From Halichondria panicea (Eukaryota > Porifera > Demospongiae > Suberitida > Halichondriidae): a DNA stretch of 64,000 bases. The position numbers were made by a program, and so were the translations under genes. The stretch is taken from NCBI RefSeq assembly GCF_963675165.1, contig NC_087380.1, forward strand, positions 884,303 through 948,302. Direction: 5' to 3'. The notes beneath the pieces were generated by a model. That model was not told the origin of the DNA. It did not search any database and saw only the letters and a program-made list of their open reading frames with translations. Within the stretch, counting starts at the first letter, position 1. The number at the start of each line of letters is the position of its first letter. This document shows positions 16,099 to 28,600 of the stretch, in pieces.

Positions 16099-19000
16099 CT
16101 GCAACATCACAGACGCTTCTATATAATCATCTAAGGAACTATATTGGTGAAAGAAATCTTAGGAGAAGAGTTAACTGATCTAGTAGTACAACTATAGCAC
16201 CTTCCATACGTATATACTCAGTATTAGCATTACTCATGCTATTGAGGCTATAGTGTTTCTACTTTCTACCAACATTTGGTAAAAATTGCCTAATAGGCTA
16301 ATATTTTTTGCCTATTAGACTGGCAAAATGCTCAATGCTCCACTGCACCTATTAGTCTCAACATTATGCTAACATAATCGGGCAAGGCCTAGCTATGATA
16401 TTATTATTACCTTGTTCATTAGCCCAGTTCTGCAGCAGCGCAGTCCAACAAACTGTCTAGCCACAGGGAAGTTGCCATTAGCAACGGCATAGTGCAGTGC
16501 AGTGTTGCCCTGTAACAGAGAGAGGACATTAACAGACAAATCTGGCAAAGCTAGGGCTGTGTAATGATCCATAACACTTACTAGCAACTGGAAAACAATC
16601 TATGAAATTATTACAGCTCATACTGTACACTAGGACAGTGTGTGTGTGTGTGGGTGTGTGTGTGGGTGGGTACCTTCTCGTCCTGTATATTGATGACAGT
16701 CTCCATTAGTCTGGCAGATAGTCTGGAGAGGGTCGAGATGTAGCACTGGGCGCAGGCTGGGGTCAAGGTTCGCTGTGCCATGCATGCAAACCACTCACTC
16801 CTGATGCTCTCCAACCAACTCTCCTATAGACACAGTGGAAACACCATCATCACAACACATCATCATCATCACAACAATCATCATCATCACAACACACCAC
16901 CATCACAACACACCATCATCACAACACATCGTAACAGAACAACCACATAGTTCAACACACTAGGCATAGCTATCTCATTACATATTACTATACACAATTG
17001 TGTGAATGCTAATGCCTTGAGTTATTACTGTGTAACAATCTTTATTTATAGATAAACTTGAATATTTTATGCCAATTGGCTGTCAGTAGGTAATATCTCA
17101 GGGAATCCCCCACCCACTCACTGCGGGATCTCCTTGTAAGGTGTTGAACTCGCTGATGTAGTCAGCCAATAGAGAGCACGGTAGCAGCAACTCAGGGGGC
17201 ACACTGCAGGGGGGGGGGAGGTAATCATATAAATTAGATATTACTGTACTGTAAAAAAAAATTACATCATAAATTTCAACTGCTACAATTATAAGCTTCT
17301 ACACACACACACACAAGTATAGTCACCTGACTTGTAGCTCTTCGTTGATTGGTCGAACAGGCACAGAGAACATTGCCCTGAGGCTAGAGCTCCTTCGTCT
17401 AAACTGCGACGAGACTCCCTGCAACTTCATCAATTCTTTCTCCATCGTTCCAATCCTCTCCTTCAAGATATAGTTCTCTTGCTCTAAATCACCGAGTGAT
17501 CGCTGACGCAGAACGTCCCCTCGCGGGATAGCCAGGGCCACGTCCGGCATGGGGGGTGGGGAAACAGGTTTATCCCGTTCTAAAGTGCCGCCTAAATCTT
17601 GTACATGTGATGTAAGGTCAACCACTTGTTTCTGCAGCGAGGTGTTGTGCTGGTTGAACACAGCTAGTAGCTGGGACTGTGTGTCCATTTTAACTTGCAG
17701 TTCTTCTTGCAGCTCTGAGCGAGCCTGTCTTCTCAGACTACCAACTTCCATTTCAACTTCTTTCAATTCTCTTTTAAGTTGAGAATTTTCTTGAGCGGAA
17801 TTTTCCTTAGTTTGAATATCGATGAGTAGTTGAACTTTATCATCTTCCAATTTCTCGATCGTCATTTCTAGAGTTTCAATTTCGTTGCGTTGCTTGTCGT
17901 TCCACTGACTCAGCACATTTACCTGTTCTTCTAAACGTAGGTTCTCATCTTGTAAAGAACGAGAAGCTTGACTCGAGTAACTAGGCAACTCTTTAAGTGT
18001 CTGTTGAAGAATGGCAAATAGTGCTTTATTGTCATGTGAGGAAGTGCCCAATGCTTTCTCCAACTGTTTGAAATTTTGTTTCAACCGTTCGTGTTCAACT
18101 TCCCGAGTTTCAGTCTCTTCAATGTGACGCTGTAAGCTCTTAATGGTGGCGTTGTATGCTTCCACTTCATCTCTGAGATTGGTCACTGTATGTTCCAGCT
18201 CTTTGATATCCTTGTTCTTGCTGCTGATGGCTTTCCGGTGATCACTGTCTCTCTGACTGGCAGTTGCTTCAAACTCCATTTTAAGAGAATGAGATCCGGT
18301 AGACGTTTTATTCAGTGTTTTTAGTTCCCCGTCAAGCCTTTGCTTCTCCTTTGCTGCCTCCTGAAGCTGGCCCGTTAGCCTTTGCTTCTCCTTTACTGCC
18401 TCCTGAAGCTGGCCTGTTAACCTTTGCTTCTCTTTTACTGCCTCCTGAAGCTGGCCTGTTACTTGAGACATCTTTGCCGTCATTTCTTCAGTAGTGGCAA
18501 TGTTAGATTGTCTGAGAGTACTCACTTCCACTAGAGTAGTCTTGTGTTGTGAGGACAAACCGGCCATTTCTTTGCTTAAAGAATCGACTTGAGAAGTTAA
18601 TTGAACAGTGTGGGCTTTAAGTCCTGTGGTATCACGTTCAAATTGTTGTTTCAAAACAGTTTCTTGTTCCAAACACTTTTCTTTGTCTGTGAGTGTTTTT
18701 TGCAGTTTTTCACAATTTCTTTGACTTGTCTCCAGCTCTTGAGTTAGTTTGATCATCTCAGCATCAGTGTTAGTTCGAACTTTCTGTTCTGACTCTCTCA
18801 AACCATTGACAATAACATCTAGTTCTTGCTTGGATTTAGTGAACTCTACAACATCAGACTTCATCTTATCAAGCTCTTCTTGCAACGTTTGTATTTGTTC
18901 CACTAATTTTTTATTGTCCAATACAAGGCTGGAATTTGCTGACTTGACAGTCTCTAGTTCACCTTTGAACCCAACAACGGCTATTTCCTCATTCGTTAGT

Positions 19001-21309
19001 TGTTCTTTAGAAACTTGAAGTTCTTTTGTGAGCTCTTCCAATTGTTTTGTCAATTCTTCTCTCTCAGATTTCAACTTCCACATCTGTTCTTGTTGCTCGG
19101 AAATAGTCTTACTGAGTGCATCGACAGTTTCTTGAAGACCATCCTTTTCTTTGCAAACTTTGCCATAAGCTTCTATCCCTGGACCGTCTTTTTCAACAAG
19201 TTCACTCTTCCCGTGAGAGGAATGCTCAACTTCTGCCATCTCTAGTTTAGTTCTGTACGAGGCAGACATTGTGCGAACACGTTGCATGTCCTGACCAGTA
19301 CGATCCAGCTGATCTTGTAGATGCATACACTGCGACTGATAGTTCTGAATCAGTTCCACCGCATTCGATAACTCTTTGGCTAGAGATCTCAGTCGAGTTT
19401 TTCCATCTTTGTAGCGTTTCTCCGCTTTTGATTTATCATCTTTGGCCTTCTGTAGTGAGCGCGCTAACAACTCGTGCTCTTCTCGATACTGTCTCGATTG
19501 GTTTTGATCGGCTACTAGTTCGTCGTAATTTGATTGGACTTCTCTCAATCGTTCCAGTTCTTTCATCATCTCCTTATTTCTAACCTCCATAGCGGACTGT
19601 TCTGAAACACTAGCCATAGCTAGCTCCTTCTCGAGCTTCGTGATGTTCTCTCTGGCCAGCTGCAATTTGTAATCTTTCTCTTCGACGGATTTTTCTAGAT
19701 CTCCGAGGGCCCTCTTGTCAATGAGAGTGTTTAGTTCCTCGACTTTACGCTCTAGTTGGTCTCTCTCGGCCATCAATGATTGTAGCATGCTTCGTGACTG
19801 TTCACTGTGCACTCGCAACTGTCGCAGTTTGAGCATCTGAACTTTGGACTCTGCAGGTAGGTCTGCCATTTCTTCTTCGATGCTATCTCGTCTCGTTAGG
19901 GAGGGGGTGTGGTTTGAACCGCTGATTCGCCGACTTTCAATCGGGCTAGGGGTGCCAGTTTCAATAAGTTTCTTTTCAAGTTCGTACTTTTGAGAGTTCA
20001 TACTTAGAGATTCAAGTTCAAATAGTTTAAGGACCAACTTCTCCTTCTCCTGTCTTGACTCCATCGTGACTGTCTCTAGTTTAGCCTGTAAGTGACTGTT
20101 TTTCTTCTTGAGTGTGGATACTTCGTTTAGCAAGTGAGCCGTATCTATATCGACAGTAGGTTGCTGCTGTTGATGATGAAACTTCACGTCAACATACTCT
20201 TGATAAATCTCATCTTTTTCTTTCTCCAATCGTTTGATTCGTTGTTGTAAAGGGACCACAATCGAACGTGTGCTCTCAAATTTATCCATTCGTTTCTTGA
20301 CACTTTCAAGGTTACCAGTTACAGTACCCAGCTGCTCCCGAGCGGTCCTAACCTCACCAGATATTTTCTGATTATTCTCCGTCAATCGAGTGTTGTCTTC
20401 AATCAGCGACTGATACGTTGCTCTTGTAACGCCCTCCGGAAGTTGGTCAGGAAATTTCCTACTCAGTTCAGCTTCTTTATCCTTGAGATGGGAATTCTCC
20501 TCAGTCATGGTTCTAACTTGAGACTTGAGCGTGGGTATGCTATCCACGCGTTCTTGAAGCTTCTTGATTTGGGCCAGACTGGCAACAAGTGCGTTTCGAT
20601 TTCGCAGCAACTCTGCAGATTGTCCACCAGATGAGTGGGCTAGCTTCACCAGCTGATTGTTTTGTTCGTGCAGTAGCGAGAGACGTTGTTTCATAGAATC
20701 CACAAACGCTTGACTGTCTAATAAATCGTTTGCTAATTTTCCTCTCTCTCTTTCAAGTTCATCAACTTTTACGGTGAGTAGTGGAATAGTTTCAACTTTT
20801 TTCTCGAGTTGCTGAATATGCAATGCACCATGTGCTATCTGTCTCTTTAGTTCATCTAGAATGCGATCTTCGGTTGAGGTCACAATGGTGAGGTTTGATA
20901 CGCTGGAGGAGGTGTCTAGTAGAGAGCTCACACTACTGTGAACGCTATCAGGCGGGGAGATCTGTGTGAGGGAGTCTGTGCTCTGTGTGTGCTCCATGGG
21001 GAGGAAGCTCGAGTGGGGGGACAGGATGGACCGGACGGGGGAATCAGAGGAACGGGAGTCTCTCTGGTGGTCGCTAATCGATGATCCTGTTGACTTCCGA
21101 TGTAGAGAGGACATGTGTACTTTGTCATGGCTGAGTGAGCCGGTGGATTTACGTGACGAGATGTCATCGTTTTTATCGGCCTTGACGGATACTAGGCTCT
21201 GTTCGACAATCACAGTTCCTCGATTTCGTTTCGAGTGTGGTGAGCGTGGTGACGAGGCTGGTGAGACTGTGTGGGGGGAATTCCTCGAGGGGGAGTGGCG
21301 TGATGTCAT
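14699..21309 (-). CDS. KANK-like protein: long coiled coil plus C-terminal ankyrin repeats
   Basis: Eight exons joined in frame give 1574 aa: 17327-21309, 17122-17203, 16674-16823, 16411-16509, 15754-15867, 15203-15301, 15038-15139 and 14699-14794 (TGA). All introns are GT-AG and the phases agree. Residues 1-150 are Ser/Pro-rich and disordered (RKSTGS twice). Residues about 155-1320 are heptad coiled coil, with three tandem 14-residue repeats (GQLQEAVKEKQRLT) near 946-990. Residues 1355-1405 form a linker (ESWLESIRSEWFACMAQ). Five ankyrin repeats follow (GNTALHYAVANGNFPVARQF; AGYTPLMLAAACC; TALMLAACSGSLEMVSLFLE; SSALMFASQSGHTEIVGSLL; GLTALDIAKEAG). Repeat order and sequence match the KANK C-terminal ankyrin domain, which in other animals links integrin adhesions to cortical microtubule capture complexes. 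I see no N-terminal KN motif, and the coiled coil is longer than in vertebrate KANKs. ATG 21309 follows an AG that could be a 5'UTR acceptor. Confidence 0.82.
15341..15485. mobile_element. MITE, family M1 copy 3
   Basis: Starts taattttagacactgttttg and ends aaaacagtgtctataat. It is slightly shorter than copies 1 and 2 and lies in the intron between exons 6 and 5 of the intact KANK-like gene. Confidence 0.8.
16840..16940. repeat. Imperfect (atcatcaca) microsatellite
   Basis: Runs of catcatcatcacaaca and caccatcacaacaca in the intron upstream of KANK exon 3. No coding potential. Confidence 0.8.
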
Positions 21310-25625: not shown

Positions 25626-28600
25626 GTCCATGAGGTCCCAGACATCAACATTTCCATTGGCTTTAGTTACAAAGAACACTCCAGGACGTGTTGGACACCA
25701 GGCCCCACCAGTCAGCTGCACGGACGAGCTGTGAGACTTGAGCAGGGCATCACCCTACAAGGAGGAGGACACAGGAATCATTAATTATGATAATTATCAA
25801 AAAATAATGCTATGCAAAACTGATGAAACGCAAAACTGATGACTTATTGGACGCTCCCGTTTGGAATGGAGATGGAACGTTTAATGTTGCCCCCTTGTGC
25901 TAGAAAACACAAAGGTTGTGTGTACATTAACTGGTCAAGTCAACTATGAAACTGTAGAACACCAGGAGTGTATGAATACATTGTGTGCTGTAAAACTAGG
26001 AGAATAATAAACATTTCGTGTCATGTTAACACTGTTTGTTTTTTGTGTGTGTTCGGCTTCTTAGAATTCAGAGAAGCCAAAGACACATAAAAACACTGTT
26101 TATCTTAAAGCCAAAAATTATATGTATATGTAACACCTAAAATAATCATGAACATTCTGTTTTGAAATGAAGGTGATCTATAAAAGAAAGCCAGAAAAAT
26201 AATCTATAGTCAAAGCAAATTTCACAGAAATTCAGCAACTAAACGGTTGATTCTCAGATTCTCAAACAATGAAGGTGGCTATTCTCGTCCTGGCATTGGT
26301 TGCCCTCACAGCCAGTGTGGCTTACGCTACTCCTGTTGAAGAAACAAAGTTTGAGGCTATGCTTCAAGCTCTTATTGAATCTCAACAGACAGAAGACGAC
26401 TCTGCAGATGGAACAGCTTCAGAGCAAGACAAGCAGTCAATTGTCGCTCAAGATCAAGACGAGCAAATCGATGCTGCTGCACTGCAAAAGTTTTTCGCAG
26501 AGCAGCAAGTGCCGGCTGAATTGCAAAAATGGGGCCGTACGATCATCAAAAATTACAGAAACTATTTCTCAAGAATCAGGGCCAACATCATCAGGAGAGG
26601 TATCAGGGCAGGCATCAGGTGTGGACTCAAGAGCATATATTCCAAGAGTACATTTCGTGGCTAAGAAAGAACGAGAACTGACAAGAGACAGATGACTGAA
26701 GTTCAGTAGATTATATATAGAATGTTGCATAATTATATACATAATTGTGTAGTTGAACGATTAGAGTGTTGAGATAACACAGAATAGGACGTGAAGAGCT
26801 TCAGTGATTTTATTATACATATAAACTGTTTCAATAAAAGCAATCGAGTTTTGCATGCGTGGGGGGATGATTGCATGCTACATACATAAAAATTATACAT
26901 AACATACATGGAATGATAATAGTACAAACTGTTGAGAACAGGACAGGGATAGTAAAGCTACTAGACGCATATTTTTTAGCTTCGAAATCAGACGTTCCTA
27001 ACACAAGTCAGGGTTTCTTCAGGATTTTGCACAAGTGGGGGAAATGTGGTTCCAAATTTATGAATAGAAAATTGATAGGGTGGTATAGGAATCAAAGTTT
27101 GTGATCAATCAATTGGTACATGTATGTGTACTGTATGCTACACCCACTACTCTGACCTTTGACCCCTCTCTCCAGATGGCCCAGGTCCACCCGCCAACGG
27201 AGAGGACTATGTCTCTGAAGAAAGGTGACCTCTCGACACACGACACCGGGCCGTTGTGAGTATTGGAATGGAACTTTGGTGGAGAGGGAACCAGTTTACC
27301 GCTCTCAGAGTCTCTCATGGGCACCCAGTCATAGTAGGCTACCTCACCATCCTAACAGACAATAATAAGCAGCTTAATAGCTACATATTTATTACATGTA
27401 TGTATAGTCTATCTACTATATACCTGTGTATAACTTCAACTTTACATTGCAAATGTTTTTGTGGTCTATTCTATGTGTAAGTGTTTGTATTTGGGCTTGT
27501 AGTTCACTGGTACAAACGTAATTAGTATGACTTTGTATAGCTGTGGGATACATGCGAGTATCAGCAACCTCACAGTTACCTCAGAGCCAATGAAGAACAT
27601 GGTGGATGCTCCCTCGATTGGTTTGCCCTCTCCACTGGCCGTCACACTGGGCTCCTCCGCAAGGTCAGAGCTAGCTACTGACAACAATGCATACATCAGT
27701 AATACGTCTGTGGTACTAGCACTATATACACACATGAATGAGAAGTGGACGAGGGTATAATAAAATCAAACGCATACCAACATAAATACTGAAATACCTT
27801 TGGGCTTCTGCTTGTGTTTCTCGTGAATACTAACTCTAGTGACAGAAAACATTCCAGGAAAATCCACTCGAGCGAGGGGCAACTGAGGGATGCAATCACA
27901 AGTTAACACTGTCATAAATTTCCTACATATAATATGGTACTCCACATAATAAATTACTGCTATTTTTCCTCACTTTAAGGAATGGTTTCCAGGTGAGGTT
28001 GATGTGGGCATACGGTTGGTCGGGAGTCACTGTGGAGGACTTCTGCACACTCACTTTCCTCTGAACAGACGGTCGAATGTCCCAGAACAATACGTTACTG
28101 TGTGATGTGTGGGGGGGTGTGGGGGTGTGTGTGGGTGGGAGGTAGAATTGGTAATACCAACGTTTAGGATACAGGAATAATTAACATGTAGGTTTAGAAT
28201 AACTACTAAATACAATTGGATTGAATCTTAACACACACACACACTCACCCATCAATGCTAGCACTGATGATTTGATTGGTTTTTCCTCCAACTCCCTCCA
28301 GTACTTGAAAGTTCTTAGTAGACACCTCGATATGCTCCGGCACCCACTGCACATGACACACGGCCAAACTGTGACTGTCCTTGATAGAGCTGACAGCAGC
28401 GTACTGTACCATTGGAGCATGGTCCAACTTGGGGTCAGTGTCAAAGATAGCCTGCAAAAAAGATGGAATTAATGGACGTGTACATGTACGTGTATGAGAG
28501 TACTGGAGTTGGCTCAGTAACTAGAGTTCTGATTATCCAAATTAAAGGACTTTCTGATTTTCTGAAAGCTTAGAAGGAGCCCATTTAGATGGTATACTCA

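Follow-up and report, generated by a model that had tools for sequence, protein, structure and literature searches.

The closest described precursors are those of the arminins and periculins of Hydra, which in the excerpted text of PMC10945409 carry a signal peptide and a two-part charge, are encoded by clustered paralogues with a few periculin genes on other chromosomes, and are lineage-restricted. In arminins the acidic N-terminal region is removed, the C-terminus is basic and its terminal glycine is thought to be amidated (excerpts of PMC12013895); the same excerpts describe the arminin-like AMP1–4 of Trichoplax as having a signal peptide, a highly acidic N-terminal part, a basic C-terminus and a C-terminal glycine. 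The Mytilus myticalins, in the parts of PMC5577615 consulted, are a multigene family with a conserved signal and anionic region, a hypervariable linear cationic peptide, frequent Gly/Arg ends for amidation, and pseudogenes. Spider toxin families pair a conserved signal with a variable mature part built on a cystine-knot framework, with a conserved Arg-Arg site (PMC4029134, in part). For sponges, the excerpt of PMC12466427 describes ASABF of Suberites, a 64-residue Cys-stabilised fold, and most of the other peptides it names are cyclic peptides and depsipeptides. No family of the kind reported below was found in sponges in the open literature searched.

The gene studied here lies in a 64,000-nucleotide stretch of contig C4 (positions 884303–948302; the window) of an assembly of 131.46 Mb in 39 contigs, of which C1, C6, C7 and C12 are also cited below. 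Like the Hydra peptides in the excerpts of PMC10945409, its family combines a two-part charge with clustered paralogues and a scattered copy, and is apparently restricted to its lineage. The window precursor and 31 open reading frames (ORFs) on C6 share with arminins a signal peptide, an acidic N-terminal half and a cationic C-terminal half, and the C-terminal glycine of the family would likewise suit amidation. Trichoplax AMP1–4 have the signal, acidic N-terminal part, basic C-terminus and glycine end in common with the family but are, in the excerpts of PMC12013895 and compared by description, a handful of named genes with DE cleavage motifs, for which these excerpts mention no antimicrobial activity. 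Arminins also have an acidic DE motif, whereas the group of relatives closest to the window gene (group A) lacks Asp or Glu directly before the putative junction and has a conserved Gln instead. The arminin likeness is one of description, with no Pfam match of arminin name among family members. For this reason, and because no acidic motif directly precedes the putative junction, the window precursor is not classed as an arminin, yet by analogy it may work like an arminin precursor. Unlike periculin-1, with its eight Cys in the excerpt of PMC12466427, the window peptide carries one Cys, and unlike the Hydra arminins and periculins the family includes members with very long Tyr/Arg- and Arg-rich ends.

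As in the myticalins, the family is multigene, its signal and anionic part are conserved, its cationic part is hypervariable, its ends are of the amidation type and pseudogenes occur among its copies. The myticalins differ, in the consulted parts of PMC5577615, in that the signal is followed by the cationic peptide and then by an anionic C-terminal extension, with a Lys-Arg cleavage site and introns; in the window family the order is reversed and no dibasic site precedes the junction. The spider toxins resemble the family in their conserved signal and variable mature part, but here the peptide is linear, with zero or one Cys and a Gln junction. With ASABF and other sponge peptides the family shares candidate host-defence status in a possibly related host; the multi-Cys framework of CS-alpha-beta defensins and ASABF is absent, all 26 members examined having at most one Cys beyond residue 20. 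Cathelicidins also place a cationic C-terminal peptide behind a propiece, and no cathelin-like Pfam domain was found in 18 members at E ≤ 0.01. With a cationic segment predicted to be helically amphipathic, the window peptide would fit the class of linear amphipathic helical antimicrobial peptides.

Gene Structure and Genomic Setting

The coordinates of the gene and its surroundings are given in Table 1. The frame is intact from ATG to TAA. An earlier note, made from the sequence of the window, had described a signal peptide, a propiece of charge −13 and a C-terminus of charge +13 free of acidic residues, and recomputation gave the same figures: net +1 for residues 1–20, −13 for the propiece (residues 21–86; 7 D, 9 E, 3 K) and +13 for residues 87–131 (4 K, 9 R, no D or E). 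The TATA box and AATAAA that it reported were both located, and its placement of the gene antisense within a dynein intron agrees with minus-strand DNAI3/WDR63 matches on both sides. These matches are neighbouring parts of one chain, with the ORF antisense between them; for the shorter piece (25626–25754), some other dynein intermediate chains outscore dynein axonemal intermediate chain 3. That the ORF is an intronic antisense frame left open by chance, a reading for which its small size and nothing more would speak, is refuted by the paralogues, coding constraint and filter controls described below, and we rate its probability as practically nil.

Table 1. Features of the window gene and its host intron, in window positions. 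Exon limits are those of the matches to dynein axonemal intermediate chain 3 (8j07_k1), not splice sites; the nearest C6 subfamily comprises C6:4092208, 4095176, 4096190 and 4097307.
Feature	Position	Strand	Basis or remark
Precursor ORF, intact, 131 aa plus stop	26269..26664	+	Relatives by DNA and protein search
Signal peptide, codons 1–20	26269..26328	+	Alignment and codon table; cut site predicted
Nucleotide-conserved block, codons 1–22	26269..26334	+	59–65 of 66 bases the same in each of 17/17 group A relatives
Acidic propiece, net −13, ending PAELQ	26329..26526	+	Charge count, alignment, dN/dS
Putative mature cationic segment, residues 87–131, net +13, hypervariable among paralogues	26527..26661	+	Charges, divergence, AlphaFold2 helix 83–127
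Terminal glycine codon, putative amide donor	26659..26661	+	Gly column 18/18; pattern 25/26 members, 30/32 ORFs
TATAAAAG box, 90 bases 5' of ATG	26179..26186	+	TATAAAA common among members
AATAAA, 169 bases 3' of stop	26833..26838	+	Sequence reading; sharing by paralogues unproven
DNA homology to nearest C6 subfamily, including promoter	26024..26809	+	Outer limits from different copies
DNAI3/WDR63 exon upstream of host intron	27166..27351	−	Protein match E 1.2e-15, residues 640–701
DNAI3/WDR63 exon downstream of host intron	25626..25754	−	Protein match E 5.8e-8, residues 708–747

Elsewhere in the window, a single-ORF protein of 1,113 aa (start 7529, minus strand) is repetitive towards its N-terminus and rich in membrane segments; large repetitive multi-membrane single-ORF proteins are common in sponge gene sets. 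A coiled-coil-like single ORF of 1,328 residues occupies 17323–21309 (minus strand), with weak Pfam matches, all below cut-off.

A Family of Paralogues on Contig C6

A DNA search of the genome with the window gene returned 19 places, namely itself and 18 on C6, and a protein search at E ≤ 1 returned 26 matches, 25 of them on C6 and the other being the gene itself; the weakest, near E 1, are doubtful. When 103,056 bases of C6 chosen around these matches were filtered for the precursor layout (signal-like start, propiece of −8 or below, end of +4 or above), 31 intact ORFs passed, lying between 3.890 and 4.378 Mb; as C6 was read around the matches, the family counts are lower bounds. With the same filter, other loci of this genome (62,926 bases, partly overlapping) and 30 shuffled versions of the window yielded no ORF at all. 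The window itself yielded two, the window ORF and, by accident, the unrelated 1,113-aa multi-membrane protein. All but one of the 31 C6 ORFs match another family ORF at E ≤ 2.1e-7. The exception, C6:3902848, was included by layout alone, its best family match having an E-value of 0.024. The window ORF is thus a member of a real, large gene family, of which it is the only copy found off C6. We group the 32 ORFs into 21 that comprise group A and its close kin, including the window gene, 10 that form a group B, and the one included by layout. Group B matches the window gene marginally (E 0.0064–0.74), so that common descent of groups A and B is likely on the basis of layout and location, the sequence link not being firm. 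Fragments on C6, among them one at 3906462–3906755 that is interrupted by internal stops and two tail pieces (3924726, 3926506), are a sign of gene birth and death within the family.

The earlier note could name no family for the protein, which holds for the libraries searched, while many relatives have come to light within its own genome. The window protein gave four weak Pfam matches, all below cut-offs, the best being to DUF533 (E 0.011). Searches with 18 aligned members at E ≤ 0.01 returned two families, each for one member: GET2 in C6:3910725 (E 2.6e-6; 27.8 bits, cut-off 25.5) and TssR_C (E 0.0088), and both matches are probably compositional. The mature part matched nothing in the PDB at E ≤ 10, and the family profile gave a single, non-significant match there, to a cathelicidin-like peptide (E 4.3). 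No relative was confirmed in viral contigs, nor in prokaryote genome contigs, which were searched for host contamination.

Several C6 members have unusual C-terminal ends. In group B, C6:3890082, 3908023, 3909449, 3919642 and 3927013 (+) and 4083341–4083910 (−) carry repeats of the YYxRYY/YYxKYY type and share a tail around KSYGNYGF...HVYRYMKSHYPNMYRKY. The precursor C6:3902848–3904338 (+; locus L070, 5848–7338) has 496 residues, of which 221 form a cationic end with a net charge of +69, rich in IRR/IRK-type motifs; it gave no Pfam match and has no clear sequence relative. The cationic end of C6:4085925–4086719 (−) consists of RS/GRRSSRS-type repeats, without a terminal glycine, and is reminiscent of silaffin- or protamine-like sequence. 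A further relative, C6:4079741–4080859 (+; L011), has 372 residues and the same signal peptide, is acidic throughout (net −104) and has neither a cationic end nor a terminal glycine, falling outside both the layout filter and the terminal glycine pattern described below; it is perhaps a separate neutralising propiece protein.

The long YYxR/YYxK repeats and poly-Arg of group B, the RS-type end of C6:4085925 and the long, highly charged end of C6:3902848 would accord with a family of cationic extracellular-matrix or mineralisation proteins, either silaffin-like or cross-linked and Tyr/Arg-rich, in which the acidic propiece serves only to maintain solubility until secretion. The ends of the window group are, however, short, mostly amphipathic, Gly-terminated and hypervariable, which is odd for a structural protein, and no clear silicatein was seen among the papain-family loci inspected in a non-exhaustive search. 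We consider this reading of the family distinctly unlikely, while those group B members with YYxR-type repeats may be structural proteins, and the members with long RS or poly-Arg ends may likewise have another role.

Coding Constraint and Silent-Site Conservation

The propiece of the window copy is under constraint. Against its four sisters, dN is 0.10–0.20 and dS 0.31–0.51 (dN/dS 0.25–0.46), in favour of the gene that the earlier note had proposed. Within the window subfamily (five members, 10 pairs), pN/pS rises from 0.43 in the propiece to 0.84 in the mature part, with similar values in a nine-member subfamily (36 pairs; 0.39 and 0.79), while in a two-member subfamily the mature part is also constrained (0.17 and 0.23). 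For the signal, pN and pS are both very low in the two larger subfamilies (pS 0.023 and 0.040), so that the ratios there (1.21 and 0.95) carry little information. Change in the mature part appears to be relaxed or diversifying; positive selection is unproven because dS there is often high or saturated. The divergence is also visible in DNA alignments. Relative to C6:4096190, the closest copy by DNA, identity is 77% over 26024–26532, is mostly lost in the mature coding part and returns at 26657–26697, while homology to C6:4095176 is continuous through the mature part, at 71%.

The start of the gene is conserved even at silent positions (codons 1–22, Table 1). Between subfamilies, mean ungapped identity is 0.80–1.00 at bases 0 to +65 and 0.21–0.63 in the blocks on either side. 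At fourfold sites of same-residue codons, comparison with 16 of the group A relatives gave 5 differences at 211 sites in codons 1–20 and 121 at 206 in the propiece, these comparisons all sharing one sequence, the window gene, and so not being independent. The contrast stems from the other subfamilies and not from the four nearest sisters, for which the counts are 0/53 in the signal and 12/75 in the propiece and Fisher tests of signal versus propiece are individually not significant (p 0.24–0.26). Synonyms are fixed by position in all 18 group A sequences: Val is GTG at codon 3 and GTT at 11, Leu is CTC at 13, and Ala is GCT at 4 and GCC at 12. Position-specific codon conservation in hypervariable families is reportedly the topic, judging by its title, of a study by Conticello from 2000 that PMC4029134 cites. 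Either conversion between copies or nucleic-acid-level selection would account for the pattern, simple tandem homogenisation less easily, since the window copy sits on another contig. The silent-site conservation of the signal block thus forms a separate puzzle, with conversion set against selection on RNA or DNA.

Promoter and Origin of the Dispersed Copy

Of 24 members, 19 have a TATAAAA motif in the 150 bases that precede the start, against 1.57 on average and 7 at most in 300 shuffles. Homology of the window copy to C6 copies begins at 26024, 155 bases before the TATA box, and because it includes the promoter the copy must have moved as DNA and not via mRNA. A retrogene origin was rejected, since the homology spans the TATA box and begins about 185 bases upstream of the point at which the transcript is expected to start. 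Besides its own location, the upstream intron piece matched two C6 copies and gave two short matches in a genome search, with no evident mobile element.

Some features of the dispersed copy suggest decay. It is the sole copy found off C6, lacks 10 propiece residues, has the longest end branch (0.22) of its five-member subfamily, and its junction reads LQKW in place of the LQGW of the family (K for G). These would be expected of an unexpressed relic of a real family, drifting in the dynein intron. Against this, the frame is open, where simulated neutral substitution (indels not counted) leaves 2–6% of copies open at d = 0.28 and 17–27% at d = 0.1; the propiece has a lower rate of replacement than of silent change relative to its four sisters (see above); and the TATA box, terminal glycine, lack of acidic residues and amphipathicity are all retained. 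A relic is therefore unlikely, but owing to the changed junction residue and the lost propiece residues the function of the window copy is less sure than that of the family, and the copy may be weakly functional.

Predicted Precursor Processing and Product

In group A, the boundary between propiece and mature part has the form (A/V)-x-(L/V/I/M)-Gln, followed in most members by Gly-Trp, and more distant members have similar boundaries (AHAQW, AKMQW, AKSQW, VKAQW). No dibasic site precedes the junction in the group A alignment. At the C-terminus, a glycine column is invariant in the 18 aligned proteins, which end in G, GG, GR, GRR or GKK. Glycine, alone or followed by Arg, Lys or Gly, ends 25 of 26 members and 30 of the 32 ORFs, the two others, C6:4085925 and 4093097, both being on the minus strand. 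The genome encodes a PAM-like amidating enzyme, and amidation would therefore be possible. Of 18 genome matches to PF01082 (Cu-monooxygenase family), those above the cut-off are at one place, C7:569857. Downstream of it on the same strand come lyase-like, membrane and tail segments, reached by about 574.3 kb and ordered by eye; one of these segments matches the lyase part of peptidyl-glycine alpha-amidating monooxygenase (E 3.6e-13). Further clusters of PF01082 matches, at C12:175501–183500 (L045) and C1:14.86–14.92 Mb, are DBH/MOXD-like as judged by eye.

The helical hydrophobic moment of the window mature segment was reached by 14 of 1,000 shuffles. Among the 17 mature segments of group A, no more than 39 of 1,000 shuffles did so for 15; the other two (85 and 66 of 1,000) are not clearly amphipathic. 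AlphaFold2 (single sequence) predicted a helix at residues 83–127, in a model that is weak overall (mean pLDDT 58.8; block means 73–76 to residue 120 and 59 at 121–130).

Signal peptide, acidic spacer and terminal glycine are also what a precursor of regulatory, neuropeptide-like amidated peptides would have. Each precursor here, however, holds one long hypervariable cationic peptide, group A is without repeated short copies, the junction has no preceding dibasic site, and hypervariability speaks against a fixed receptor, so that we regard such products as very improbable.

We consider it probable, judging from sequence, that the family encodes precursors of amidated linear host-defence peptides, of a build resembling that of the Hydra arminins, with expression, cleavage and activity presumed. 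The antimicrobial-precursor reading of the earlier note has been strengthened in its layout logic by the paralogues, amidation-type ends, amphipathic segments and PAM-like gene, while the transcription, processing and activity that it implies stay conjectural. A gene of one ORF under a TATA promoter of its own would give a secreted precursor, from which the signal peptide may be removed near A20|T21, and the acidic propiece (−13) would pair with the cationic part (+13) and silence it during secretion. A protease would then cut at the (A/V)-x-(L/V/I/M)-Gln boundary rather than at a dibasic site, most probably on the C-terminal side of the Gln or just N-terminal to it; Arg or Lys would be trimmed where present, and the C-terminal glycine would be converted to an amide by the peptidylglycine amidating enzyme of the genome. 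The product may be an amphipathic cationic helix acting on microbial membranes, in defence or symbiont control. Transcription, the cleavage site, amidation in vivo, membrane activity and the defence role are the steps of this scheme that we infer. The family would diversify by tandem duplication, with signal and propiece constant and the mature part fast-changing, and the window copy would have arisen by duplication at the DNA level, taking its promoter along into the dynein intron.

It is quite possible, if short of probable, that the family constitutes a new arsenal of some 30 genes for host-defence peptides, in which one chromosome region keeps the 66 signal bases (down to their silent positions), the acidic partner and the Gln junction while swapping the mature module, and from which promoter-bearing duplicates can escape to other chromosomes, the copy in the dynein intron being an example. 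Should the peptides prove to be produced and active, the family would be a large, gene-encoded set of linear defence peptides, with arminin-like architecture and a junction and sequence of its own. It would supply many natural variants on one scaffold, and with them a way to study how a host selects its microbes, and would be a candidate parallel to the Hydra and placozoan peptides.

Papain-type enzymes prefer a hydrophobic P2 residue; such genes are present in the genome, and an enzyme of this type would fit as a candidate junction protease. A genome search for the papain family gave 77 matches, of which a minority were read. The active-site stretches read have Cys in 14 cases and Thr in one (L058), and one stretch proved cathepsin L-like in a follow-up search. 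In L057, the Trp is preceded by a Ser, but this point lies ahead of the profile match and the stretch may be intron. L058 (Thr), and possibly L057 (Ser, exon start uncertain), are thus papain-family genes in which the active-site Cys is replaced.
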